From positions 36,411-100,410 of the IMG/VR virus record IMGVR_UViG_3300020156_000023: a stretch of 64,000 nucleotides of DNA; one strand, given 5' to 3'. The stretch comes from a virus. Both the position numbers and the translations under genes were made by a program. The notes beneath the pieces are model-generated. The model saw nothing but the letters and a program-made list of their open reading frames with translations. It ran no database searches and was not told the origin of the DNA. This document shows, piece by piece, positions 25,555-57,714 of this stretch. Each line of letters starts with the position of its first letter. Position 1 is the stretch's first letter.

Positions 25555-27021
25555 TTACAGACCAACATTTCTTTTTAATATAAGTTCACCACATTTAGTG
25601 ATATCCTCAATATGTACCCCAGTAATCTTAGATACGTGCATTGAGTAGTATTCACCTGCGTGAGACATTAAACCACCTTTAGATGGTCCATAAGGATTGA
25701 TAAGTCCAGCTACATAACCAAACTTGTATCCATTTCTCTTAGTAACTAACTGTACGTTAGAATTACCATTCTCTCCTGAGAAGTCAAGGAAGGTAAACCT
25801 CATTGATTCTACAGGATATCCTGTTATAGGGTCAATCTCAAAGTTAATGCTTCTGTCATCATATAATGGATTGTGAACTACTTCAAGTTCTGCACCATTA
25901 TGCATGATATACTTGGTAAATTGATAACCAATTGCATAAGCATTAGAGTTGTAAGGAGATTTGTCAGGTTTAATTGGAGAGAAGTTAGAGTTAGCAATGA
26001 ACCAACCTCTTTTCTCCATAAGGTCCTGCATAGCTCTGTTGAACAGAAGCATACCATATTCTCCAGTGAACACTTTAATTTTTCTACCTGCACCTGGCTT
26101 AACTCTTGAATAGAATATATCTAATAAGAACTCTTCAATAAGAGTTGCTGTAAGCTCAGAGTAGTAGTGTAAGTGAGAATCCTCAAGTTTCTCTTGTATA
26201 CCTGAGAAGGTATCTACTGGTCTTGCAGTTGCATTTTCAATAGACCTTGCTCTTCTGTTATACCAATAAGCTCTTTCAAGCTCTCTGTACCATTGTCTCC
26301 AGTATTCTACTTCAGCATAAGGTATCCATGTATCATGACTTGCACCTTTTGAATCTTGTAGTTTAACAGCTAATACCTCTTCAGCAGCATAATCAGTTAC
26401 CTGATATTTCTTTCTGAATTTACCCATTGAATCTTCAAGGGTTAAAGGAGCTGCGTACTGAGTTGAACCATCTTGGTTATCTGCCTCACCATAAGTAGAG
26501 TAAAGCTTAGCCCATTGTTGACCTGGTTGTAAGTAAGCAGGTGGTACGAATGCTTGGAAATCATCTGATACAAGCCTTACTGTGTACACCCAACCATTAC
26601 CATGTCTTTGAACCTCATCCATAACCCTACACTGATACTTCTGTCCAGAAGTACCTGGAGTAATTACATCCCCTGGTACATACCAATTCTCATCAAGTTT
26701 AACCTTGAAAGTAGTTCTTCCTTGTCCTGGAGTAGTATTAGTACTTGGCTCAACATTCTCAATAACTACAAGAGGCCTTGTGTCTGCACCTTTCATAGAC
26801 CATTCCCATGCCATAGTACCTATTGTTCTCTCAGCACCTGTAGCCCAAGATATAGATGATAGCGGGTTGTCTGAGTAATAGTTCTGAGCAGAGAATAGTT
26901 GATTCATCTTGTCCTCAAACACTGTAGGCTTAGCATTAAGCATAGCTCCCAAGTGATTAAGTTCAGTCATGTTAGCATGCCAAGGCATTTGTTTTGTTTT
27001 TAACTTTCCTAATGTTGCCAT
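25555..27021 (-). CDS. Major capsid protein (HK97-fold, crAss-like)
   Basis: At 488 residues with start MATLGKLKTKQMPWHANMTE, this matches the crAss-like major capsid protein in length and in sequence blocks such as ENWYVPGDVI, RKKYQVTDYAAEEVL and the C-terminal GYVAGLINPYGPSKGG. It follows the scaffold-like gene by 25 bp. The protein forms the icosahedral shell. It appears full-length, and the gap after it allows separate control of downstream genes. Confidence 0.92.
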   Translation of the reverse strand: MATLGKLKTKQMPWHANMTELNHLGAMLNAKPTVFEDKMNQLFSAQNYYSDNPLSSISWATGAERTIGTMAWEWSMKGADTRPLVVIENVEPSTNTTPGQGRTTFKVKLDENWYVPGDVITPGTSGQKYQCRVMDEVQRHGNGWVYTVRLVSDDFQAFVPPAYLQPGQQWAKLYSTYGEADNQDGSTQYAAPLTLEDSMGKFRKKYQVTDYAAEEVLAVKLQDSKGASHDTWIPYAEVEYWRQWYRELERAYWYNRRARSIENATARPVDTFSGIQEKLEDSHLHYYSELTATLIEEFLLDIFYSRVKPGAGRKIKVFTGEYGMLLFNRAMQDLMEKRGWFIANSNFSPIKPDKSPYNSNAYAIGYQFTKYIMHNGAELEVVHNPLYDDRSINFEIDPITGYPVESMRFTFLDFSGENGNSNVQLVTKRNGYKFGYVAGLINPYGPSKGGLMSHAGEYYSMHVSKITGVHIEDITKCGELILKRNVGL

Positions 27022-27046
27022 AATTTTTTAAAAAATGTTTGTTTTA

Positions 27047-28180
27047 TTAATTGAACAAATCAGCTACACTTACACCTTGTGATGAACTTCCAGAACCACT
27101 TGGTCTTAAGTTTTTTCGCTGTTCTAAATTTGTTTTTACTTGTCTTGTTTGTTTTGTTTTAGTTACTTTTTCTAATCCTGTGAAGTCAAAATCACTTTCA
27201 ATAAGCTTAGCTAATAGTATCATTCTCTCTGAGTCCTGGAATGTTTCAGCAAGTTTCTTCTGGAAACCTGTTATAACTTTATCTTCACCTATCTTCTGGT
27301 CTTTCTTAGTTAGGAAGTTAAATAACTTAGTTTTATCCTGGTCTGTTATCTTAAATCCTTTTACTTCATCAATCTCATCAAGAGTCTCTTTTACAGTTTC
27401 TTTGAACTCATTCTCTTGTTCCTTAGCTGCTCTTTTAGCTGCCTCTTGTTGTTTTAGAATGGCTTCTTTTTGTTTATTAACCTGCTCTTTTACTTTAGTA
27501 TCGTACTTTTCAGCAAATTTCTTTTTCTTACCTGATTCAGTAAGATATTCTATCCTGTCTTCAATTTCATCTTTATCCCAACCTTCCTGAGCTAATTGAT
27601 ACCTGATAAGGCTATCCTGATAATTCTCATCATCTATACTACCCTGAGGTAAGTCAGTAGTTTTAGAATAAGTCTTAAAGAACTCTTCAGTACTACCACC
27701 ATCTCTTTTAAACTTAATGAATGCTTTAGCATCATCATCAAGGTCTTTTGTAGCCCATGCTTTAAGTCTTTCAGTTACTTCAGCCTCGTACTCTTCCTGT
27801 TGTAGTTCAAGTAATCTATCAACATCAATTTCCTCATCTCCTTCAACCTCTACATGTTTGAATAAACCTGTTTCTTTAAGGTCTTTAAACAAGTCAGTAT
27901 AAACACTTGTTTCACCTTTAGGTGTTCCAGGGTCTTCACCTGGGTCTTCTCCCTTACCTTTTCCAGGTGTAATTACCTGGTCAAAGAAATCATCTTCTTC
28001 CTCATCCTCTTCATCTTCTTCACCAGTCTTACCTTTAGGTTTTTCAGGTTCTTCTTCTGAAGGTTCTGGTTTCACAGGTTTAGTCTCTCCTACTGCTGGT
28101 ATTCCGAAGAAATCAGTATCTGAACTTTCCCAATCAAAGTTCAATAAATCATTTTGTTGTTCTTGTGTTTCTTGTGCCAT
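27047..28180 (-). CDS. Scaffold-like acidic coiled-coil protein
   Basis: I place the start at the ATG at 28180 (MAQETQEQQNDLLNFDWESS) rather than at an in-frame TTG 15 nt earlier. Residues 35-90 are almost only Glu, Asp, Lys and Pro, and the rest is helical with long Lys/Glu/Gln stretches, ending GSSSQGVSVADLFN. Such low-complexity helical proteins encoded between portal and major capsid genes are usually scaffolds. No protease motif is visible, so assembly chaperoning is the best guess. Confidence 0.75.
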   Translation of the reverse strand: MAQETQEQQNDLLNFDWESSDTDFFGIPAVGETKPVKPEPSEEEPEKPKGKTGEEDEEDEEEDDFFDQVITPGKGKGEDPGEDPGTPKGETSVYTDLFKDLKETGLFKHVEVEGDEEIDVDRLLELQQEEYEAEVTERLKAWATKDLDDDAKAFIKFKRDGGSTEEFFKTYSKTTDLPQGSIDDENYQDSLIRYQLAQEGWDKDEIEDRIEYLTESGKKKKFAEKYDTKVKEQVNKQKEAILKQQEAAKRAAKEQENEFKETVKETLDEIDEVKGFKITDQDKTKLFNFLTKKDQKIGEDKVITGFQKKLAETFQDSERMILLAKLIESDFDFTGLEKVTKTKQTRQVKTNLEQRKNLRPSGSGSSSQGVSVADLFN

Positions 28181-28221
28181 GATATTTTCTTGCAAATTTA
28201 AGATTAAATATTTAATATTTT

Positions 28222-28249
28222 AAAGTTTAAAACTTAACTTTTAAACTTT
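28222..28249 (-). terminator. A/T-rich perfect inverted repeat between portal and scaffold genes
   Basis: An 11-bp perfect stem (AAAGTTTAAAA and its complement) with a 6-nt loop lies 16 bp after the portal stop. Being A/T-only it is a weak terminator candidate. On the minus strand TAAATTTG (28200-28193), a -7-type box, follows it and lies just before the scaffold start. Confidence 0.5.
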
Positions 28250-28264
28250 GAAGCTAATAGCTTT

Positions 28265-30736
28265 TTATGAGCTGCTTTTCTTTTTAGCTTGTGCAGCTTT
28301 TGTTTTAGCTATACTATTTTTCTCTTTATCTAATTTATTTCTTTCTCTATTTTGTTTTTTATCTTCTTCGAACTTCTCCTCATCTAATTCCTGTTTCCTT
28401 GCCTTAAGGTCTGCTTCCACTCCAAACTTAGCAACTTCAAGTACATCTGGTGTACCATCACTATCCATATCTTTATCTTCATTAAATCCAAGAGACAGAA
28501 CAGTTTGTTTCTGGATATCAAGCTCACCTTTAAGTTGTATCTCAGCCATTTGGTTAGAATGTTCAATAGCAAGTCTTTCTCTTTCCCACTGTCTTGCAGC
28601 TTCAGCCTGAGCTTCTTGTGATTGAAGTTGTTCTCTCTCCATACCTTGCTGTCTTTCTATTCTCTGAGCTTCTGCAGCTTTAAGCATTTCTTCAGCTTCT
28701 GCTGTAGACTCAGCATTCATGATAGTAAGCACATCACTTAATTCTATCATTTGATTCTGCATAGCAGCATGAGATAATTGCTGTACCATCTGTAATGCCT
28801 CTGCACTCTTCATAGAGTTAGATACAAATATACCATATGTAGAATTTTCCAGTAGGTCATAATCTACATCAATAAGCTTCCTGGACATATCATCCAGTAC
28901 ATAAGATAGTTTAGCAGGTTGGAATTCAGCATAAGTTACTTTAGCACACTCTATAAGAGCTTGTAATACATTTCTTTTAATATTATTATGTACCTCAAAA
29001 TAAGGTTCTATAATATTAGCTGATTGTACTAAGGCCTGTTGAGTATTCCTTACAGCTTCATCTTGTCCTATCTGTCCTTCTATCTGTTTAGTAATACCTA
29101 CAGATTCTCCACACCTTCTTTCAATATACTCTGCTAACGTCACATATTTCTGTATGTCTGAGATAAGCGACATATCTATCTCTTTAACAGCTTGAGTCAC
29201 ATCTGGATTACCTCTGTTACCTTCTTCTGAAGGGTCCATGATACCAAACTTATTAGCCTTGATATAGTACATCCATTTCTCTACTGTCATACCTGCAGAC
29301 CTTGGTATCATATTACCATTAAAGAATAATATTTTACCTTCATCAGATGCAATAAGAAGTTCTATCCTGTACATAAGTACATTATATAAATACTGATAGT
29401 ACTTCATCCTATCTACTAATGAGGTTATCTGAGAGTTCATGTTATCATAGGTAGCTCCTATATAAGATAATTTGCAGTTATAAAGATTATCTAAATCTTT
29501 ATGTTGTCCTGGAACTTCTCTTAAGAATGCATATATATCCTTACCAATCAGATAACCTTCATATTTTGTAGGTATCCATTCAGTAGTAAGGCTAATATCC
29601 CCTATCTCAGTATCAAGTACATAGCTTTCATCAACTATATCCTCATATTCTTGTCCTGTAGTAGGGTCTATTCCATATAAAAATACAAGTGGTTTCAATG
29701 ATTTCCATTCACAATGCAGTACTCTTACTCCAACCATGGAAGAGCTACCATCATTCCTGAATGCAAAATCTTCATCATGATAAGCTTCACCATGAGCATA
29801 ATCTTCATAGATTTTATCAATCTCTTTTAATGTAAGCTCAGAACCAAAATGTTTAATTACATCAGAAGGAGTCATGAACATCTCATATGCAGCCCATTCT
29901 CCATCTTCTATGTAATCTAAATCAGGTGATTTATCATAATCAAATCTTAATGGATTTACTACTTTAAGTGTAGGTTCTCCATTTACAGCACCTACCCAGA
30001 ATATCTCTCTACCTGATATAAGTCCATGTTTCCACCCCTTATTAAACTTCATTTTGATATCTTCCTTTTGGATTAGATATTCTAATAGTTGATGAGATAA
30101 TATTTCTGCAGGGTCTTGATGCTCTCTCTCCATATATCTTCTAACTTCTGGAGGAGTCATTGTTTGTAGTTCCTGCTCAATTTGAGCAGCTATTTGTTCT
30201 TGTTCTTCTGGAGTTAACTCTCTCCCTTGAGTTTCCTGAGCATACTTTTGCTCTAACTCAACTCTTATAGGAGCTACAATTGTATTAGTCACAAACTCTT
30301 TTAACCTGTTTGTTTCTTCCTGTTCCCTCCTCGTTGTAGCTTCTTCATTGGTAGCTACTACCTTCCATGAGAATGGCCTTTTCATCTCCATTCCTAATAG
30401 AGCCTTAATCTTACCTGATACAATATCCTTGTTAGTAAAGTCTGCAGGAAGTTCTCCTACCTCCTTACCAAAAGGATAACATACTCTTTCGAAATCTGAT
30501 TTATTTATAACATTGTTAAACAAGTCATAATTAACCTTCATTCTCCTGTAATCTGAAATAGCAGGCTCTCCTGAATTCAATATACCACCATCACTGTTGG
30601 TATACCCAAAGAACAAGGAATTACCAAATGAAACTCTATCAAGTCCTTTCATTTGGTCTTTGTACCACTGCTTGTCATTTGCATCCTTCTGTCTTCTTGT
30701 TAATCTCTGTTCTGGATTAAATAGTGTTTCTGACAT
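28265..30736 (-). CDS. Portal protein
   Basis: The 823-residue protein starts MSETLFNPEQRLTRRQKDAN and follows terminase by 6 bp. It shows the crAss-like portal plan: an N-terminal clip/wing region with FVNTIVAPI-like helices, a long stem region, and a C-terminal helical barrel and tail (from about residue 640) rich in Gln, Glu, Ala and Lys. The dodecameric portal is the DNA gate and docking site for the packaging motor. Length and position are standard for the family. Confidence 0.9.
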   Translation of the reverse strand: MSETLFNPEQRLTRRQKDANDKQWYKDQMKGLDRVSFGNSLFFGYTNSDGGILNSGEPAISDYRRMKVNYDLFNNVINKSDFERVCYPFGKEVGELPADFTNKDIVSGKIKALLGMEMKRPFSWKVVATNEEATTRREQEETNRLKEFVTNTIVAPIRVELEQKYAQETQGRELTPEEQEQIAAQIEQELQTMTPPEVRRYMEREHQDPAEILSHQLLEYLIQKEDIKMKFNKGWKHGLISGREIFWVGAVNGEPTLKVVNPLRFDYDKSPDLDYIEDGEWAAYEMFMTPSDVIKHFGSELTLKEIDKIYEDYAHGEAYHDEDFAFRNDGSSSMVGVRVLHCEWKSLKPLVFLYGIDPTTGQEYEDIVDESYVLDTEIGDISLTTEWIPTKYEGYLIGKDIYAFLREVPGQHKDLDNLYNCKLSYIGATYDNMNSQITSLVDRMKYYQYLYNVLMYRIELLIASDEGKILFFNGNMIPRSAGMTVEKWMYYIKANKFGIMDPSEEGNRGNPDVTQAVKEIDMSLISDIQKYVTLAEYIERRCGESVGITKQIEGQIGQDEAVRNTQQALVQSANIIEPYFEVHNNIKRNVLQALIECAKVTYAEFQPAKLSYVLDDMSRKLIDVDYDLLENSTYGIFVSNSMKSAEALQMVQQLSHAAMQNQMIELSDVLTIMNAESTAEAEEMLKAAEAQRIERQQGMEREQLQSQEAQAEAARQWERERLAIEHSNQMAEIQLKGELDIQKQTVLSLGFNEDKDMDSDGTPDVLEVAKFGVEADLKARKQELDEEKFEEDKKQNRERNKLDKEKNSIAKTKAAQAKKKSSS

Positions 30737-30742
30737 AATTCA

Positions 30743-32980
30743 TTATTTGTTCTTGTTAAAAAATTTATCCATTGCATCTACTATATCTTTGACCTTGCTA
30801 GTACCTTTCTTAGTGTATACTTTACCAAGTTCATCTTCCTGGCATTGGAACATACACATCATAAAAGCCATAACCCTATCGAAGTTACCTTTTCTATTAT
30901 ATTGTATAAGCTCTTCAAGTAAACCTATTGAGTTAATAGTCTCAAGATTTAGTATAGCATTGCCATGCTCATCATAATCCCTTACTGTTAATAACCAATC
31001 TTTAATGTACTTCTCTCCTGCATCCTTAAGTACATCTACCATATGTATACCATATATCCTTGCTACTGTAGAATTCTTAACATTCTTAGAAATCACAGCA
31101 TCTGGTTGTACAGCTAATTGGTCTAATCTTTTTATTCTTCTGAAATAGTTCTTAACATGTGTAACCTCATTTTCATGCATTATTTCAGCATTATAAAGTT
31201 CAGCTAACATAGATGCAATTCTATTAACATCATCAGCTTCTGAGGGCCTACCTACATACTCAGCTACTATTACATTATTCCTATGACTCCCTTCATGAAC
31301 TGACTTATACACATATATAGCAGCTAGTGATACACCTGCTGATAAGTCCTGCCTATAAGGGTCATATCCTATTTTATATAAACCTTTTGGTGCATTATCT
31401 ACAGGATATTCATATATAATAGGAGCTCCTGAGAGGTCATTCACTTTAGGTTTATAATTATAGATAGGTTGAAGTTCATTCTTCAAATCAGGCCTTGCCT
31501 GTACCCTACCATCTTTTCTTTCTAAATAAACTGGAGTACCTTTCTTAGTCTGTAGATTCTCGTGAGTAACCCTATTCAACTGATTCCTCAATTCAACAAC
31601 TGGAAAGTTGTTTGTAGAAACAGTTAAGAAAGCTTCTGCAGGACAGAAAGGATATTCCTGTACGTGCTGTTGTAATGTAGTTGAAGAACTTGATGCAGCT
31701 AGCTTCTGAGCTCTCCTTTCCATTTCAAACTTAGTAGCTCCTTCTATATCTGAGTTACCCTGGTCATCATAATAACCTTCCATATTCCATGTTACTGGAT
31801 GGAAGAATCCACAAACTGTATTCTCAGCACCTTCATCCCATATATTCATGAATGGCATTAACCTGTAAGCCTCAGGACTATAAAACATATCTGCATAATC
31901 TACTGTACCTGATTCCATATCACCACCTGTACCAAATATAATAATCTGTCCTGTTATATATGAACCCCCTGTTAATGCTGGATATATAGCATTATAAGCA
32001 TCTTTTAAATTAGGGAAAGCACCTGCTTCTTCAAGCAAAACTATCTTACCATCTTTTCCCCTAGCAGCATCAGGATTATCTTTAAATGAAAGGGCAAGAA
32101 TCTCAGATTTATAACCTCTCTCAATTGTAATCCCATTCTGAGTAGACTTATAAGAAGCTCTTCTATGCTCCTGTTTGTCTACATACTCTCTGGATTTAGC
32201 CCATCCTGTATGCTCATTAAGGAAGTTTAAATAGTCAGATGCCATACCCATTGTACCTTTAGGATACAAGAATTTCTTCTCAAAGGCACCAATAATAATT
32301 TGTGCATTTCTTTCTGTGTTATATATATTAGCACAGATAGCACCATCTTTATAGGAGTATCCCTTCCTTCTTGACTTTCCCACTATCATGTGGTAACCAC
32401 CATTCACATAGTCAAGATGTGGTTTAATTCTCAGACCTAATCTTTCAAGTACCTTAAGAGATATTTCATCTCTCGCAGCTTTCATTTCTAAATACCTTGG
32501 GTCTGACTTTAAATTCTGAGCTCCTACTTCATCTTTTAGGAGTCTTATCTGTTTCTGATATTTTCTATATTCTTCTTTCTCTTCAGGTAATGAAGGTACT
32601 TGGCTATTCTTAGTGAATAACCCATTCCTTGCTATTTCAAGGGCCCAGAAATAATCATAATCTCCATCCCAGAAATCAGGACATCTTGTTTCCTTGTTAG
32701 CAACTACAGATTCCTCATCTTCCTCATCTTCTACTACAATCTGTATCTGAGTAAAGTTAAGGTACATATAATGGTGACCAGTAATTTTATGTATATTACC
32801 TTCATCATCAATTACACTGTACCCTTCTTTACACCTTCTTAACTGTTCTTCCCAGTACATTATCCAGTCAGGAGTTCCAGTAGGAGCACTACAATAGCTA
32901 CCTGTTCTCTGGAACCTCATTCCTTCTTCCCTGAATACTGTACTGTTAATCCATTTACCTTCTTTAGTTCTTATCTTCAT
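30743..32980 (-). CDS. terL: Terminase large subunit
   Basis: The ATPase part has the crAss-like Walker A GKSRRKGYS at about residue 204 and a Walker B-like VLLEEAGAF near residue 313. The nuclease part has an acidic residue in KIGYDPYRQD near residue 535 and further downstream acidic positions (QCQEDELG at the end). At 745 residues it is a normal size for the family. It packages DNA into the prohead through the portal, whose gene follows by 6 bp. Its start overlaps the preceding 92-residue gene by 17 nt. Confidence 0.93.
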   Translation of the reverse strand: MKIRTKEGKWINSTVFREEGMRFQRTGSYCSAPTGTPDWIMYWEEQLRRCKEGYSVIDDEGNIHKITGHHYMYLNFTQIQIVVEDEEDEESVVANKETRCPDFWDGDYDYFWALEIARNGLFTKNSQVPSLPEEKEEYRKYQKQIRLLKDEVGAQNLKSDPRYLEMKAARDEISLKVLERLGLRIKPHLDYVNGGYHMIVGKSRRKGYSYKDGAICANIYNTERNAQIIIGAFEKKFLYPKGTMGMASDYLNFLNEHTGWAKSREYVDKQEHRRASYKSTQNGITIERGYKSEILALSFKDNPDAARGKDGKIVLLEEAGAFPNLKDAYNAIYPALTGGSYITGQIIIFGTGGDMESGTVDYADMFYSPEAYRLMPFMNIWDEGAENTVCGFFHPVTWNMEGYYDDQGNSDIEGATKFEMERRAQKLAASSSSTTLQQHVQEYPFCPAEAFLTVSTNNFPVVELRNQLNRVTHENLQTKKGTPVYLERKDGRVQARPDLKNELQPIYNYKPKVNDLSGAPIIYEYPVDNAPKGLYKIGYDPYRQDLSAGVSLAAIYVYKSVHEGSHRNNVIVAEYVGRPSEADDVNRIASMLAELYNAEIMHENEVTHVKNYFRRIKRLDQLAVQPDAVISKNVKNSTVARIYGIHMVDVLKDAGEKYIKDWLLTVRDYDEHGNAILNLETINSIGLLEELIQYNRKGNFDRVMAFMMCMFQCQEDELGKVYTKKGTSKVKDIVDAMDKFFNKNK

Positions 32981-39836: not shown

Positions 39837-40013
39837 ATGAATAAAAATATAAAAGCAGGACTATTAACTTTATTGTGTATATTAATATTCTTAGGTATAA
39901 TATGGTTAATGGTTAACTTTACAAAAACAATAATACTAGTTTTTGCTTTGTTGATGATATGTGTATTTATATACCTTGTATTTAATATAATAAAAAAAGA
40001 TTATTTAGATTAA
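39837..40013 (+). CDS. Small two-helix membrane protein, 58 aa
   Basis: The frame MNKNIKAGLLTLLCILIFLG continues with two hydrophobic helices separated by NFTKT and ends with a basic tail (IIKKDYLD). This is a typical small phage membrane protein, superinfection exclusion or host-envelope factor by analogy. It is immediately upstream of the large structured RNA. Confidence 0.6.
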   Translation: MNKNIKAGLLTLLCILIFLGIIWLMVNFTKTIILVFALLMICVFIYLVFNIIKKDYLD

Positions 40014-40680
40014 ACTCTTGTTCAATTGCAGGTAAACTAAATCTTAGAAAGCATCACATATTAATAATGGAGTTGTTATTGGCTCAAGGTGCAACCTTGC
40101 AAGAGTTTATTAATATATTAATCCTCTAACTGAAGATAGACAGTAATACGGACTAATCTCTGGGTTATGTTGGTGCACATAAAAGTGCACATTACACTAC
40201 TGCCAAGAGTAGGTTGTTTATTGTAAGCTATTGATTAGGGCAGACAATTATTTGTGCAGTCATTCAGCTATAGATGAAGGCTTCCCTAACAAAAGTCCAC
40301 TTGGAAATGGATTGGAGGATTTTTAATAATATAGCTAAGAATTAGGTAAAAGTTCCTATAAAGAGAAGCGGACTCTTCTTAGCTTATAATATAACTCTCA
40401 TAACAGGTGTCACATCACAGCCCTGAAAGAACAGAGATACTATTATTGAACCAGTATAAACATTAAGATGTAGCTACTGAGGGGTGAGGGTAATCCATTA
40501 GGCTAAGGTAGTATCAACCCTTTATTCTAAGACTAACAGTAGTAGAGCTTATGAGAGTTTTTAATATAGAATGTAAGATGAGGAGGTAAGTAGGGGAGTA
40601 AAAAGTAAGATTGACTATCATACTATATGAGCTGAAAGGAATAAGGGGTTTAGTCAACTGTGTAGTCTTACATTTTTAAA
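40014..40680 (+). ncRNA. Large ornate structured noncoding RNA, about 660 nt, class unknown
   Basis: No reading frame of note occurs, but many perfect helices can be traced: ATATTAATAA/TTATTAATAT (40058-40067 with 40107-40116) closing over CAAGGT-GCA-ACCTTG; GTGCAC hairpin at 40173-40190; GCTAAGAA/TTCTTAGC (40334-40383) forming a three-way junction; AACTCTCATAA/TTATGAGAGTT (40393-40403 with 40549-40559) enclosing GATACTA/TAGTATC (40436 with 40509); and AATGTAAGA/TCTTACATT (40570 with 40666) enclosing TTGACT/AGTCAA and a TATGA hairpin, followed by TTTTTAAA. This nested architecture has the size range of GOLLD, ROOL or similar giant phage-associated RNAs, but I cannot assign it to any of them. 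Confidence 0.75.
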
Positions 40681-40804: not shown

Positions 40805-41065
40805 ATGGAAATAGTATCTATAATAATAGTAGTTCTATTTATGATAGGACTCTATACAGTATGTTTTGCTATGCCCTATACAATATATAGGTTTGAGAAA
40901 CTTCATACAATACGCATGAAGGTAATAAAACGCTCTCGTCACTTACTTCCATATATACCAGACAGAAGTAAGATTAGTTTATTTAATTTCTGGTATCCTG
41001 ATGAGGATAAGATAATGCGTATGGCAAGGCAGAAGTATAGATATCACAAACATTTAAATTCTTAA
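40805..41065 (+). CDS. Small membrane protein, 86 aa
   Basis: An N-terminal membrane segment (MEIVSIIIVVLFMIGLYTVC) is followed by a basic cytoplasmic part rich in Arg, Lys and Tyr (RMKVIKRSRHLL). No homologous family recognised. It lies at the head of a compact small-gene operon with 3 bp to the next gene. Confidence 0.65.
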   Translation: MEIVSIIIVVLFMIGLYTVCFAMPYTIYRFEKLHTIRMKVIKRSRHLLPYIPDRSKISLFNFWYPDEDKIMRMARQKYRYHKHLNS

Positions 41066-43450: not shown

Positions 43451-44707
43451 ATGGAAGAAGTCACTATGACATCAGAAGTAGCAAGAGCACGTGAGGAAGG
43501 AAAGTACTCAGGAGCTCCTGAATTTGATGTGGACAGAGTTGCTAAAGAATTAGACGGAGTATTTCAGTCAGTATTAACTGGTAAAATAAGTACTTTAGAT
43601 AATGAAGCAAAGGTCCGTGTCTCAAAGTTTGAAGAAGAACTTGATGTAGCATTAAAAGTTTATGGAAAGGAAATTCAAACTATATTTCCTGAGATTAAGC
43701 AAAGATTGCTGGATGAGGTTATTAAAGGTAGAGCAGTTATAGTATTACCAGATAGTGCTGAAGTTGCTATATCACATATGGACCATCCAGAAATGGAAAA
43801 TGTTGTGAAATCATTGCATCTTCACAATAAGGCAATGCTTGTAGGCCCTGCAGGAACAGGTAAGACTACAATGATTGGTCATATTGCAGAAAGGAAAGGT
43901 TTACCCTTCTATAAATACTCTTGTTCAAGAGATTCTTCAGTACATGACCTATTAGGTTATAAGCAACCTGCTTCAGAGACATACTTAGAGACTTCATTTC
44001 TCAGATGTTATGAAGAAGGAGGTATATTCCTCGTAGATGAGTATGATGCTATGTCAGGAGATATGGCATTGTTCTTTAATGGCATTGCTGATAACTCTAA
44101 GTTCATATCTATACCACATAGAGATGATAAGCCTACTGCTCAAAAGCATAAGGATTTCTATCTTGTGATGTGTGGTAACACATGGGGTAAAGGTTCTACT
44201 GATTATTCAGGTAGGGACTTCCAGGATATGGCACTTATGGATAGGTTCAGGTTCTGCAGACACCATATTGGATACCATCATGCTCTTGAAAGAGAGTTAA
44301 TGCAGCACAATTATCCATTTGCTGTAGCATTAAGGGGAGCTCTTGAAAAAGTAGGAAGTTATTTATCTACACGTAATGTGGAAGATATATCCAGGCTTAT
44401 TCAATGTGATGTAGACCCTAAGTCTATAGTAGCTATGGTTACTCAGGATTTATCTGAACTAGATAAACCTGTTATATTAGAGGCTGTTAAGGACATAACT
44501 ATAAGGAAAGAGAAAATAACAGTTAAGTGTGAAAAGGGTGTAGAATATGTTCTTGATAAACTTATAGCTACTTATCCTTTGAATAATCCTGCCAAATTAG
44601 CAGAGCTTAAAGCAGGTAAACCAGTTCTATACTCTAACTATCTCGAAGCTATGTCTAAGATTAATGGACTATCTCCTTCAAGAGAAGGTATCCCAACTAA
44701 ACGTTAA
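43451..44707 (+). CDS. MoxR/CobS-like AAA+ ATPase
   Basis: A 130-residue helical N-terminus precedes the AAA+ core: Walker A GPAGTGKTT near residue 135, Walker B IFLVDEYDAM near residue 195, a sensor-1 Asn in VMCGNTWG, and an arginine-finger region MALMDRFRF. This is the MoxR/CobS clade, which normally works with a von Willebrand A partner to remodel or insert a cofactor in a target protein. Here the next gene (2 bp later) and the TROVE/vWA gene at 46843 are likely partners. The target is unknown. Confidence 0.85.
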   Translation: MEEVTMTSEVARAREEGKYSGAPEFDVDRVAKELDGVFQSVLTGKISTLDNEAKVRVSKFEEELDVALKVYGKEIQTIFPEIKQRLLDEVIKGRAVIVLPDSAEVAISHMDHPEMENVVKSLHLHNKAMLVGPAGTGKTTMIGHIAERKGLPFYKYSCSRDSSVHDLLGYKQPASETYLETSFLRCYEEGGIFLVDEYDAMSGDMALFFNGIADNSKFISIPHRDDKPTAQKHKDFYLVMCGNTWGKGSTDYSGRDFQDMALMDRFRFCRHHIGYHHALERELMQHNYPFAVALRGALEKVGSYLSTRNVEDISRLIQCDVDPKSIVAMVTQDLSELDKPVILEAVKDITIRKEKITVKCEKGVEYVLDKLIATYPLNNPAKLAELKAGKPVLYSNYLEAMSKINGLSPSREGIPTKR

Positions 44708-46842: not shown

Positions 46843-48534
46843 ATGTCAAAATCAAATTCAACATTAGCTGGTAAATTAGGTTCTATACAACCTAAAGAAG
46901 GTTTAGTAGCTGCTAATAATGTACCTACCCCAGACACTAAGAACATACAAGGGTATGATGCATATAAGCAAGATAAGTGGTTAAGATTGTTAACAATGCT
47001 TAATGTACTTAAACTACAACCACAATATTACAGAAGTGAGAGGACAGCACTACAAGAGTTACAAACTCTTATCAAAGAATGTGCTACTGAAGATGCATAC
47101 TTCACATGTCAGTGTATAGTATGGTCAAGATGTTTAGGGGAAGGTATGAGAACTATTTCTCATGCTGCTTCTGTATTTGTAGCACCATACATTTCAGGAC
47201 AAGAGTTCTCTAAGAGGTTCTATGGACCATGGAACAAGAAAGAGAAAAAAGGTGGTGTGATTTATAGGCCAGATGATATGAATGAGATATTACAAGGTTT
47301 TGTAGCTCTAAATGGAGAATACAAAACTACAACTGTAACAAATCATACTACTGGTGTTTCAGACACTCAGGTAGATATCTCAGGTACAAAGTTAACTAAT
47401 GCTATGAAGAAAGGATTTAAAGCAGCCATTGAGAGTCTTGACTCTTATTCATTGCTTAAGTATAAGTCCTCTCTGATAGATGTTATAAACCTTGTACATC
47501 CTAAATCATCAGACTCTCAGGCTACAGTAGAGGTGGATGGAGAAACTGTCTATACTATTGATGCTATAATGAGAGGAATGAATGTTTCTGCTAATACTTG
47601 GGAAGTAAACCAAGGAGAGGCAGGTCAAATTGTTTCTAAAGCTGTCAAGGAAGGTAAAATCACTGAAGAGGAAGCTAAAGAGGTATTAACTCAAGCTAAA
47701 GCAGATAATTGGGAAGAGATGCTTAATGAAGGTAAATTACCTATATTAGCAACTCTTAGGAACTTAAGGAACATCCTTAAAACTAATCCTAAAAGTGAAA
47801 CAATTAAGAAATTGTGTGAACTTGTATCTAATCCTACCTTGTTAAGACAAGGTAAGATAATGCCATATCAGATTGATATGGCTAATGAGATTATGCTTAC
47901 TGAGTTTAGTGGCTCTACTGCAAGGACTGTATCTAAAGCTTTAGCTGAAGGTTATGAACTTGCTGTGCCTAATTTAGCAGAGTTATTACCAGGTAATAAT
48001 GTAGTGTTCTTAGATATGTCAAACTCTATGACTTGGCATAAAGTTAGGGTTAATGGTAAAGAAGGCTCTACTACTCCTGCAGATAAAGCATGTCTTATTG
48101 CTGCAACTATAGCTAAGGCTACTGGAGCTGATATTATGATATTTGGTACAAGTGCTAAGTATGTACAATATAACCCTAATACGGATGTATTTACATTAGC
48201 TAAGCAATTGAATAATGCCAATATGGGTGGTACTGATTTATCTACAGCGTGGAAATTAGCTAAATCATCAGGTAGGAAATATGATAGAGTATTTATCTTA
48301 TCTGATAATGAGGTTAACACAGGAAATACCTATAATGCTTATAGGGACTATATGAGTAATATGGGTAATCCGTATGTATATTCAGTAGACTTAGCAGGAT
48401 ATGGTACTAATGCTATTGCTGGGGATAAAGTAAGGTATTATTATGGGTATGGATTTGCTATGTTTGATGATATAGCAACTTCAGAGTTCAATCCAACTCA
48501 TCACATTGACAAAGTAAAACAAGTAATAATTTAA
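46843..48534 (+). CDS. TROVE-domain (Ro60/Rsr-like) RNA-binding protein with vWA domain
   Basis: The N-terminal 330 residues are HEAT-like helical repeats of the TROVE type (RTALQELQTLIKECATEDAY, LRNLRNILKTNPKSETIKKL). The C-terminal part is a von Willebrand A domain with an intact metal site: DMSNS near residue 391, the Thr in MGGTDLS, and LSDNE. Ro60 proteins bind misfolded RNAs and Y RNAs, and bacterial Rsr works with tRNA-like YrlA RNAs and PNPase. It is the last large gene before the tmRNA/tRNA cluster, so a role in RNA quality control or with the nearby structured RNAs is plausible. Confidence 0.88.
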   Translation: MSKSNSTLAGKLGSIQPKEGLVAANNVPTPDTKNIQGYDAYKQDKWLRLLTMLNVLKLQPQYYRSERTALQELQTLIKECATEDAYFTCQCIVWSRCLGEGMRTISHAASVFVAPYISGQEFSKRFYGPWNKKEKKGGVIYRPDDMNEILQGFVALNGEYKTTTVTNHTTGVSDTQVDISGTKLTNAMKKGFKAAIESLDSYSLLKYKSSLIDVINLVHPKSSDSQATVEVDGETVYTIDAIMRGMNVSANTWEVNQGEAGQIVSKAVKEGKITEEEAKEVLTQAKADNWEEMLNEGKLPILATLRNLRNILKTNPKSETIKKLCELVSNPTLLRQGKIMPYQIDMANEIMLTEFSGSTARTVSKALAEGYELAVPNLAELLPGNNVVFLDMSNSMTWHKVRVNGKEGSTTPADKACLIAATIAKATGADIMIFGTSAKYVQYNPNTDVFTLAKQLNNANMGGTDLSTAWKLAKSSGRKYDRVFILSDNEVNTGNTYNAYRDYMSNMGNPYVYSVDLAGYGTNAIAGDKVRYYYGYGFAMFDDIATSEFNPTHHIDKVKQVII

Positions 48535-49665: not shown

Positions 49666-50041
49666 GGGGGTGACTGGTTTTGACAGCTAAGAGTAGGTAA
49701 TAATATTCAGCAGTCAGTGATGACTTAAAACATTGAAGGTGAAATAATTAAATGGCAACATTGATAATACACAAGTAGAAGCTAACATGACTGTAGTACA
49801 CAACATATTAAATGGTGGTTCGTATGAAGGTCAACTCAAAGGAGAAGATGATTTAGTTACATCTAAAGGAACTTTTGTTAAAACAAATATGTTAGTAGCT
49901 GCCTAAGCTATAAATAGAAGAACACAACACATAGGGATTATGGATTACTAATGTTCCTCTCAATACATTAGAACAATAAGCTGTATACAATATTATTAGT
50001 TGAAAATAGTTTGGACAGGAGTTCGACTCTCCTCACCTCCA
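49666..50041 (+). tRNA. ssrA: Transfer-messenger RNA (tmRNA), phage-encoded
   Basis: The 5' end GGGGGTGACTGGTTTTGACA and the 3' end with T-arm AGGAG-TTCGACT-CTCCT followed by CACCTCC and A fold into a tRNA-like domain with a perfect 7-bp acceptor stem, including the G3-U70 pair that specifies alanine. The terminal CCA is not encoded. Inside, after TAGTA at 49794-49798, an open frame of 35 codons (49799-49903) ends in ...NMLVAA and TAA (49904-49906). The tag is unusually long; the resume codon is inferred. tmRNA rescues stalled ribosomes with SmpB and tags the product for proteolysis. Confidence 0.9.
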
Positions 50042-50046
50042 CAAAT

Positions 50047-50122: not shown

Positions 50123-50209
50123 TAAAGAGTAGTAACACATAAGATACTTCGAAATCAAATTTTTACTTTGGCAATTCAAAAAACAATCTTATGTAATTTT
50201 CTCTCTTTA
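50123..50209 (+). ncRNA. Copy of the RNA element that flanks the permuted tRNAs, here without a tRNA
   Basis: Outer helix TAAAGAG/CTCTTTA (50123-50129 with 50203-50209), internal loop TAGTAAC opposite AATTTTCT, inner helix ACATAAGA/TCTTATGT (50137-50144 with 50187-50194), then TACTTCGAAAT on the inside and an A-rich end. This is the same order of parts as at 51278-51420 and 54181-54335. The enclosed 35 nt do not form a tRNA. It may be an empty or decayed copy. Confidence 0.65.
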
Positions 50210-50489: not shown

Positions 50490-50697
50490 AGAGTGGTTAG
50501 GAATAGGTTACTTCGTAAACAATATAAAGGCAGAGTCTTAGGACTCAGAGACTATATAAGTTTCAATTAACTACGTGTAGTAACACGTTGCGAAATGAGG
50601 TTAACTTATGGGTTACTTCAACTATAAGGGAAGTTATACTCCCTAAGAGTATAATGGTATGGCATTATCTATACAACCCTATTCCTTCATTCCCTCT
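50490..50697 (+). ncRNA. Structured RNA in the tRNA array, possible diverged copy of the TACTTCG element
   Basis: The 219 nt between tRNA-Arg and tRNA-Asn hold no gene. AGGAATAGGT (50500-50509) pairs with ACCCTATTCCT (one bulge, 50677-50687), and TACTTCGTAAAC follows the 5' strand exactly as in the permuted-tRNA element; AGAG/CTCT could form the outer helix. Inside are hairpins GAGTC-TTAG-GACTC, ACGTGT-AGTA-ACACGT and TTATACTC-CCTAA-GAGTATAA. No T-arm is present, so the insert is not a tRNA. Confidence 0.5.
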
Positions 50698-51277: not shown

Positions 51278-51420
51278 AATACTAATAGTAAGACATTAAG
51301 TTACTTCGCAACACTTTTAATGTTAAGGTCATAGGTTCGAATCCTATACTATGTTTATACATGGTTAGCTCAGTTGGTAGAGCATAGAAAAATACACTTA
51401 AAGTCAAGTTCTTTAGTATT
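51278..51420 (+). tRNA. Circularly permuted tRNA-Lys (UUU) gene, 3' half before 5' half
   Basis: The 3' half comes first: AACA-CTTTTAA-TGTTA, AGGTC, T-arm ATAGG-TTCGAAT-CCTAT, ACTATGT, T (51310-51355). After a 3-nt linker comes the 5' half ACATGGT-TA-GCTCAGTTGGTAGAGC-A-T (51359-51385). ACATGGT pairs with ACTATGT over all 7 positions, and the T at 51385 completes the anticodon stem (TAACA/TGTTA). Joined, they give a normal 73-nt tRNA-Lys. Flanks: outer helix AATACTAA/TTAGTATT, loop TAGTAA, inner helix with TTAAGT/ACTTAA, then TACTTCG. A second, ordinary Lys(UUU) tRNA exists at 51911. Confidence 0.8.
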
Positions 51421-53987: not shown

Positions 53988-54001
53988 GTTAATTAGAAGA
54001 A

Positions 54002-54159
54002 GCGCGAGTGGCTGGTTGGAATAAGCGAGTAGGTTGCAAGCCTACTGGATATCTGAAAAGAGTTTATAATGATAATATTAAACAGAAAAAGAGTAAAATC
54101 TTGGGTTAATAGTATAGTTATAAATCGTGTCCATGGAGGTTCGAATCCTTCCTTGCGCT
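54002..54159 (+). tRNA. tRNA-Cys-like (GCA) with about 85 nt inserted in the variable region
   Basis: Acceptor GCGCGAG/CTTGCGC, anticodon loop TTGCAAG on GTAGG/CCTAC, T-arm GGAGG-TTCGAAT-CCTTC. Between anticodon and T arms GGATA pairs with TGTCC, and in its loop lies an insertion with hairpin TCTG...GTTTA/TAAAC...CAGA and the string GAGTAAAATCTTGGGTTA. The D-region resembles Leu tRNAs. A normal tRNA-Cys exists at 55676, so this copy may be degenerate, or the insertion may be removed. Confidence 0.65.
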
Positions 54160-54180
54160 CAACACAGAAGAAATGTTATA

Positions 54181-54335
54181 AACAGTAGTGATAGTTAAGT
54201 TACTTCGAAATCCATCACAAGGAAGAGATTGTCAGTTCGAGTCTGGCCCCCTGCACTAAATATAACGTCATGCAGGGGTAGGGTAATTGGTTAGCCCGCT
54301 TAAAAGAAAACAACACTTAACTTATATTCTCTGTT
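54181..54335 (+). tRNA. Circularly permuted tRNA-Val (CAC) gene, 3' half before 5' half
   Basis: The 3' half, 54212-54255, reads CC-ATCACAA-GGAAG, AGATT, T-arm GTCAG-TTCGAGT-CTGGC, CCCCTGC, A. A 16-nt linker follows, then the 5' half GCAGGGG-TA-GGGTAATTGGTTAGCCC-G-CTT (54272-54301). GCAGGGG/CCCCTGC is a perfect acceptor stem, and CTT+CC pairs with GGAAG only when halves are joined, giving a 74-nt tRNA with anticodon CAC, U33 and A37. Flanks: outer helix AACAG/CTGTT, loop TAGTGAT opposite TATATTCT, inner helix AGTTAAGT/ACTTAACT, then TACTTCGAAAT. Confidence 0.85.
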
Positions 54336-55608: not shown

Positions 55609-55670
55609 AAAAGCTTTGCCAAGTTAGTATCCATATAAAGAAAAACTTGAGGAACTAACCAAAGCTTTTT
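55609..55670 (+). ncRNA. Rod-like hairpin RNA ending in a T-run
   Basis: AAAGCTTTG pairs with CAAAGCTTT and an inner GTTAGT/ACTAAC helix continues the rod, closed by a 25-nt loop, followed by TTTTT. With a promoter just upstream it could be a short independent RNA, or a terminator that shields tRNA-Cys from upstream transcription. Confidence 0.6.
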
Positions 55671-56179: not shown

Positions 56180-56343
56180 AAATGAGCAACTCAATTCCTG
56201 TGACAGGTAGCCCAGGGAAGTCACAATCAAATAGTTTAAATTATAAAACTCATTTTGAAACACCTTCAGGGGTATGCATCAACTGAATATTGGTTTGGTA
56301 GGCTCAAATGGACTAATGAATATAAGGTAGTAGTTGCTCATTT
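56180..56343 (+). ncRNA. Structured RNA, 164 nt, closed by a perfect 12-bp helix
   Basis: AAATGAGCAACT (56180-56191) pairs perfectly with AGTTGCTCATTT (56332-56343). Inside are CCTG-TGA-CAGG, a hairpin CAAA-T-AGTTT...AAACT-CA-TTTTG, and ACC/GGT around CTTCAGG. No gene lies in this stretch. The fold is a multi-branched domain like the other RNAs of this phage. Confidence 0.6.
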
Positions 56344-57567: not shown

Positions 57568-57714
57568 TCTATTAGAAACTGATTGTTTTAGCAATCACAT
57601 AACGAGTTTAAGTTTCTAATAGTATTCTTTGGAAACCCTTTTATTGATATGTACACTATTCCTTGCGAGCATTATGCTTCATTCAGGGTAGGTATGTATT
57701 AATTTTAGGGTTTC
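57568..57714 (+). ncRNA. Tandem structured RNA just before the DNA polymerase gene
   Basis: The 236 nt between 57515 and 57752 hold no gene. CTATTAGAAACT pairs perfectly with AGTTTCTAATAG (57568 with 57610) around a GATTG/CAATC hairpin. Next, GGAAACCC/GGGTTTCC (57630 with 57707) closes a rod with the 12-pair helix ATTGATATGTAC/GTATGTATTAAT, then TATTTTTATT follows. The second part may be a terminator, or a leader that controls polymerase expression. Confidence 0.65.

Follow-up and report, generated by a model that had tools for sequence, protein, structure and literature searches.

A crAss-like phage carries an early-region array of five small stem-sealed RNAs, three of which represent families without an Rfam match

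The early region of a crAss-like phage, represented here by a 64,000-nucleotide (nt) stretch of IMG/VR virus sequence (the window), contains a non-coding array at 40011-40676 that consists of five separately folding small RNAs in a row, M1 to M5. Three of these modules, M1, M4 and M2, belong to RNA families that we call E1, E2 and E3, respectively. The families have no Rfam match and are new as far as the tools tell. Their structures are conserved with compensatory changes, E1 keeps a fixed strand and position relative to the structural genes, and the families are spread among crAss-like phages. Such phages rank among the most abundant viruses known, and most genes of their early region have no assigned function. 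We consider it fairly probable (about 0.6) that the end-sealed early RNAs act in trans through a conserved partner, which probably comes from the host.

The array sits between two early genes and, as a preliminary description of this DNA had stated, is without coding potential. No credible open reading frame (ORF) was found on either strand of 40011-40676, and the longest ORFs within the array encode 31 amino acids (aa) on the plus strand and 47 aa on the minus strand. The perfect long helices reported in that description are real. Counting Watson-Crick helices of at least 9 base pairs (bp) with at least three G-C pairs and a span of 45-260 nt, we found three in the array compared to 0.3 expected, and none of 1000 dinucleotide shuffles reached three. 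The 11-bp helix that had been singled out is exact, with AACTCTCATAA at 40393-40403 pairing to TTATGAGAGTT at 40549-40559. When the helices are sorted by position, however, they do not build the nested multi-helix architecture that had been proposed, but form five adjacent closed units, each closed end to end by a separate helix of 9-11 bp. T-rich spacers, such as TTTTTAATATA, come after the 3' strands of most sealing helices. The folding energy of 40014-40680 (667 nt) gave z = +0.55, with 11 of 20 shuffles equally good. M2 folded alone closes on itself (z = -2.86, 0 of 200 shuffles as good), and M1, M3, M4 and M5 folded singly gave z-scores of -0.8 to -1.2, which are not significant by energy. 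The case for structure, as read from sequence comparison, is one of conservation and compensatory change rather than folding energy.

These results bear on the earlier proposal of a single giant ornate RNA of the GOLLD/ROOL type. At the gathering threshold, Rfam models detected only tRNA and tmRNA in the window, both outside the array. Between 39800 and 40810, no model matched at E values up to 10, including GOLLD, ROOL, OLE, HEARO and Y RNA, so the earlier statement that no known family could be assigned holds. ARAGORN and the Rfam tRNA models did not respond to the array, and no paper describing the E1 motif or such an array was found among the open-licence papers searched. Like GOLLD and ROOL, the array is a phage-borne structured non-coding RNA of comparable total length and unassigned function, and like GOLLD it has variable regions next to conserved ones (PMC12286853); moreover, one primary transcript may hold all of the modules. 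In contrast to GOLLD and ROOL, the array is composed of five sealed units, has no model match and lies in the early region rather than in a tRNA island. The phage's tRNA cluster is some 10 kb away. Because the units recur singly in other phages and the full-length fold is no better than that of shuffled sequence, the conserved unit is not one long RNA, and we regard the giant-RNA explanation as extremely unlikely. M1, M2 and M4 are separate RNAs rather than parts of one 660-nt RNA because they have homologues elsewhere, either alone or in other combinations. The broader description of structured non-coding RNA in a crAss-like early region, new as far as the tools tell, is borne out, and the helices are kept in homologues with compensatory changes.

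M1 (40011-40109, about 100 nt) is the E1 RNA of the window, as judged from its helices, homologues and compensatory changes; like all features of the array, it is on the plus strand. Its sealing helix, P1, pairs 40011-40020 with 40100-40109. TTGCA at 40026-40030 forms a pseudoknot with the hairpin loop TGCAA at 40090-40094, the stem of this hairpin pairs CAAGG (40085-40089) with CCTTG (40095-40099), and a variable arm occupies about 40034-40084. The family layout consists of the sealing helix, UCCAA, the strand UUGCA, the variable arm, and the hairpin CAAGG-UGCAA-CCUUG, which abuts the sealing helix directly and has a loop that pairs with UUGCA as a pseudoknot. M1 has the sealing stem, the UCCAA linker, the UUGC:GCAA pseudoknot and the 5-bp hairpin stacked on the stem. 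It scores 88.6 bits (E = 6.4e-17) against model R1, the seed of which includes the window sequence itself; model E-values derive from a shortened calibration. Our own comparison shows a tRNA-like order of elements in E1: its sealing stem takes the place of the acceptor stem, the 5-bp hairpin stacked directly on the 3' strand of this stem that of the T arm, and the pairing of the hairpin loop with the 5' side that of the T-loop/D-loop contact. Unlike tRNA, E1 has no CCA end, its loop is not UUCRA, and it carries a long variable arm.

When named phages were searched at the DNA level, matches were confined to the first 118 nt of the array and came from 18 Flavobacterium phage records. These homologues match at 76% over 118 nt and fall outside annotated genes where annotation exists. 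Syntenic contigs together with pattern scans of IMG/VR yielded 16 E1 stretches, and a pattern fixing just the sealing stem and linker yielded at least 120 stretches in IMG/VR. By pattern, there are at least 91 distinct E1 sequences, the interiors of which fall into 45 clusters, and 88 of the listed sequences pass a structural filter. For all pattern-based scans, the family sizes given are minimum values, and part of the apparent conservation is imposed by the pattern itself. An exact E1 pattern had no match because AGGTAAACT was demanded.

In the first 17 aligned E1 sequences, all nine sealing pairs of P1 are changed on both sides, and 97.5% of P1 cells are paired compared to 33-46% when slid. 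The pseudoknot is invariant in these sequences, as it was fixed by the search pattern. Another 17 variants, hand-picked for range and thus not an unbiased sample, include double-sided changes in two pseudoknot pairs (UUGUA with UACAA or UACAG in place of UUGCA with UGCAA) and one such change in the hairpin (CAAAG/CUUUG). A common second type of E1 carries CCAAGCAGG with the loop RUUGCAA; here, the loop has gained the UU that the 5' strand has lost, and only three pseudoknot pairs are left. The variable arm of one E1 subfamily is a covarying hairpin stack.

M4 (40393-40559, 167 nt with a variable middle) is assigned to E2 on the basis of its relatives and the compensatory changes in P1, which is the 11-bp helix described above. 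Inside the sealing helix, CAGG at 40404-40407 pairs with CCTG at 40422-40425, and the constant 3' block comprises AAGACTAACAG at about 40529-40539 and GAGC at 40545-40548. The E2 family comprises at least six sequences, namely M4 and five relatives in the loci L014, L056, L057, L058 and L112. Six of the 11 P1 pairs are changed on both sides (five sequences), with AACTCTCATAA/TTATGAGAGTT replaced by AAACTTCTAATA/TATTAGAAGTTT or AATTACAATAA/TTATTGTAATT, and the inner CAGG/CCUG hairpin is constant across relatives. M4, which is part of the seed, has the defining sealing stem, CAGG/CCUG hairpin and 3' GACUAACAG plus GAGC block. A relaxed E2 pattern gave four matches, all of which lie in coding sequence and are attributed to chance.

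M2 (40120-40321, 202 nt) is the E3 RNA and has two variable arms. P1 pairs 40120-40129 with 40312-40321 and is followed by the constant block TGAAGATAGACAGTAATA at 40131-40148; helix H3 pairs 40140-40146 with 40218-40224, hairpin H4 pairs 40197-40201 with 40208-40212, and hairpin P5 pairs 40296-40299 with 40308-40311. In addition to the energy of its own fold, M2 is supported by an alignment of 13 distinct members, in which sealing helices of 9-12 bp were found by algorithm. All 131 sealing pairs of P1 are standard and are built from 12 different strand pairs (with strands written by hand). The corresponding values are 68 of 69 pairs with seven different strand pairs for H4, and 53 of 57 pairs with nine different strand pairs for P5; the strands of H3, H4 and P5 were chosen by eye, which biases these counts toward pairing. 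M2 has the sealing stem, the UGAAGAUARACARUAAUA block, H3, H4 and P5 that define the family. L082 has, from about position 1683, the 5' part of an E3 unit (AAATCACTTGCTTGAAAATA) and behind it an ORF starting MEKVYIYCLKDTEENIRYIGKTTNIKRRLYSH. By eye, this ORF resembles a GIY-YIG homing nuclease, as though inserted into the E3 unit. The two remaining modules are known from the helix listing: M3 is a small stem-sealed unit (40333-40384) with P1 pairing 40333-40341 to 40376-40384, and M5 is a stem-sealed unit (40568-40676) with a P1 core pairing 40570-40578 to 40666-40674.

With loose patterns, E1, E2 and E3 are found close together in several contigs besides the window, and their combinations differ. 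L058 has E2 then E3, L014 has E2 without an adjoining E1, and L068 contains three E1 copies inside 800 nt. In both L057 and L112, E2 comes first, then an E1-like unit, then a unit with the sealing stem AACTATTGTAAT/ATTACAATAGTT; the stems are the same in the two contigs and the interiors are unrelated. The AACTATTGTAAT/ATTACAATAGTT-sealed unit itself has a constant stem and an unrelated interior in three copies from these two contigs. Phages of the Fpv20/21 type carry a single E1 upstream of a membrane-protein gene, and Fpv1 has other stem-sealed units ahead of the same gene. Together, these arrangements look as if units are swapped and duplicated as wholes.

The window was taken from a virus record of 100 kb, and its minus strand at 25558-32980 encodes a crAss-type major head protein, portal and terminase large subunit (phrog_11589, phrog_6547 and phrog_6681, and terminase relatives), which identifies a crAss-like phage. 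The terminase is about 50% identical to that of Fipvunavirus (Flavobacterium phages) and 37-40% identical to those of gut crAss phages. Relative to these structural genes, the array is encoded on the other strand, and some 7 kb separate it from the terminase gene. The last ORF ahead of the array encodes a predicted membrane peptide of 58 aa (39837-40013, plus strand), and the first ORF past it encodes 86 aa without a family match (40805-41065, plus strand). Among the contigs first reached through E1 or E2 patterns, 14 of 17 have a crAss-type terminase and portal, and the portal is present in 30 of 40 contigs from later scans; those without a portal are mostly short fragments. All 43 E1 contigs that were amenable to this check carry a crAss-type portal, and E1 points the other way, in the early direction: it is antiparallel to the portal in 30 of 30 contigs and, in another 13 of 13, to the terminase, from which it lies 5.7-13 kb away. 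These contigs are related and do not count as independent trials. This uniform direction argues against a freely flipping element.

Three E3 contigs have no match to the crAss-type portal: L285/G071 (180 kb), L300/G079 (306 kb) and L301/G080 (120 kb). G071 holds E1 beside E3, and both G071 and G080 have TROVE genes. Thus, E3, together with the E1 of the 180-kb contig, may reach beyond the order. The type-1 E1 pattern had three matches in 84,980 bacterial and archaeal genomes, of which one is genuine and lies on a 4.5-kb contig of a metagenome bin; the other two are within coding sequence and were rejected as chance matches. Nine named phages lacking a BLAST match (Fpv1, FpV4, crAss001, phi14:2 and five gut crAss genomes) gave no convincing E1, and a crAss001 match (E = 0.003) was discarded since it falls within a gene. 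Because the tested gut crAss genomes have no convincing E1, the family may be typical of other, largely environmental, crAss-like members.

We infer the expression, processing, trans action and partner of the array RNAs along the following lines. By analogy to crAss001 and phi14:2, the array would belong to an early transcript made by injected virion RNA polymerase. Crass-like phages inject an RNA polymerase, crAss001 early genes turn on within 10 minutes, and the authors of that work indicate virion-polymerase transcription for the like operon of phi14:2 (PMC8375218). The transcript would release individual RNAs, each sealed by pairing between its own 5' and 3' ends, a format also seen in free-standing stable RNAs. 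The constant cores are predicted to bind a constant partner, probably a host factor. These cores are the pseudoknot stacked directly on the sealing helix in E1, the CAGG/CCUG hairpin with the 3' AGACUAACAG block in E2, and helix H3 with hairpins H4 and P5 in E3. The hypervariable arms may diversify in the manner of trans-acting decoys or adaptors, and the combination of a constant core with such arms suggests a constant partner with changing or unconstrained tips. A decoy role in particular is a guess that we hold to be doubtful. Antisense guiding is without support within the window, as the array's best complementarity to other parts of this sequence is 16 nt, which was equaled in 2 of 100 shuffles.

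The phage itself encodes a candidate RNA-binding protein. A Ro60-like gene with TROVE and Ro60 vWA domains, identified by domain match, lies at 46843-48534 on the plus strand and is preceded by an AAA ATPase gene at 43451-44707. The array RNAs could thus be Y-RNA-like RNAs bound by the phage's own Ro60, with the sealed stem as the Ro site and the interior as an effector module. As in Y RNAs with Ro60/Rsr, the modules are sealed end to end by a stem that encloses a variable interior. A TROVE protein is among the crAss001 early genes (PMC8375218), and Ro60 is also found in the close relatives G001, G004 and G012 and in G071 and G080. However, Ro60 is absent from Fpv21 and nearly all other records with E1, E2 or E3, TROVE occurs in just 2 of 34 of a second record set, G001 has Ro60 yet no E1 or E2 match, and the array has no Rfam Y RNA match. 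We therefore rejected Ro60 as a general partner, given its absence from most phages that carry these RNAs, and consider the Y-RNA explanation very unlikely. Because this sole phage RNA-binding gene tested does not track with the RNAs, the partner of trans-acting RNAs is probably a host factor.

Several observations weigh against stable trans-acting RNAs. Sigma-70-like promoters are at or below chance in the array, neither an intrinsic terminator nor a processing site was recognised there, and M3 and M5 have no homologue among the collected loci. In addition, some E1 copies stand about 30-90 nt ahead of a start codon (Fpv21, L009, L010, L065 and L062), as would be expected if each module were a cis-acting leader, that is, a 5' untranslated structure serving as a regulator, nuclease shield or translation control for the next early gene. 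But the downstream gene varies between phages, the units occur in tandem stacks, and the next ORF is 450-1450 nt off in L067, L068, L070, L074 and L075. Many copies precede hundreds of non-coding bases or other units, with no single constant gene. We favour stable trans-acting RNAs over leaders, which we judge rather unlikely, because the ends are sealed, unlike units are stacked and there is no constant downstream gene.

Finally, the E1 sealing-stem sequence is far more constant than pairing requires, and this stem may have sequence-specific or DNA-level functions. Promoters for the N4 virion RNA polymerase are short DNA hairpins, and the modules could likewise be cruciform or hairpin signals in DNA, for example promoters for the injected polymerase. 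E1 resembles the N4 promoters in its few copies per genome, its position in the early region and its invariable early-gene direction in phages that inject an RNA polymerase (PMC8375218), and its hairpin and stem sequences are unusually constant. Yet the window has early genes on the upstream side of the array as well, and the fixed strand speaks against a symmetric (for example, invertible) element. Moreover, elements of 100-200 nt with a pseudoknot, G-U pairs and covarying inner hairpins exceed what a promoter hairpin comprises, E1 itself being a 100-nt pseudoknotted element with covarying inner arms. DNA-level elements are thus an improbable explanation.

Other RNA-like features were observed in the window. 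A tmRNA at 49666-50044 (Rfam 67.8 bits, E = 2.9e-24), missed by ARAGORN, marks the start of the phage tRNA cluster. Two apparent circularly permuted tRNA genes, at about 51298-51400 and 54197-54325, have the 3' half (T arm and acceptor 3' strand) upstream of the 5' half (acceptor 5' strand and D arm). When rejoined in the normal order, the first is called by ARAGORN as tRNA-Lys(ttt) with an intron, and the second is uncalled. Each gene has TTAAGTTACTTCG on its upstream flank and ACTTAA on its downstream flank. Similar genes in L413 and L321 have the same permuted order, with complementary acceptor strands of different sequence. A tRNA-like gene at about 54000-54160, with anticodon-arm sequence around TTGCAA and the 3' end TTGCGCTC, looks split by an insert of about 80 nt and is not called by ARAGORN even when introns are allowed. 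Small non-coding units closed by a stem lie between the tRNA genes (50140-50196, 50500-50690, 51295-51330 and 54190-54207), carry the recurrent motif TTACTTCG or ATACTTCG at their inner base and are possibly a further RNA family. Beyond the array, non-coding units with perfect 10-12 bp closing helices are also found at 55609-55669, 56180-56343 and 57569-57622.

E1 is present in many members of the order, always points in the early direction and sometimes neighbours other new families in a tandem arrangement, which suggests that early infection includes an RNA-based step not described in the open-licence papers searched. We tentatively suggest, at less than even odds, that crAss-like phages have order-wide exchangeable early RNAs: unrelated families of one format (sealed stem, constant core, hypervariable arms) would be arranged in tandem, be exchanged among phages and target a host factor in trans when infection starts. 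If true, such RNAs would be a hitherto undescribed category of phage RNA effector. E1 is carried by isolated phages of Flavobacterium psychrophilum, and the related isolate Fpv1 has other units at that site, which makes the system testable in culture.
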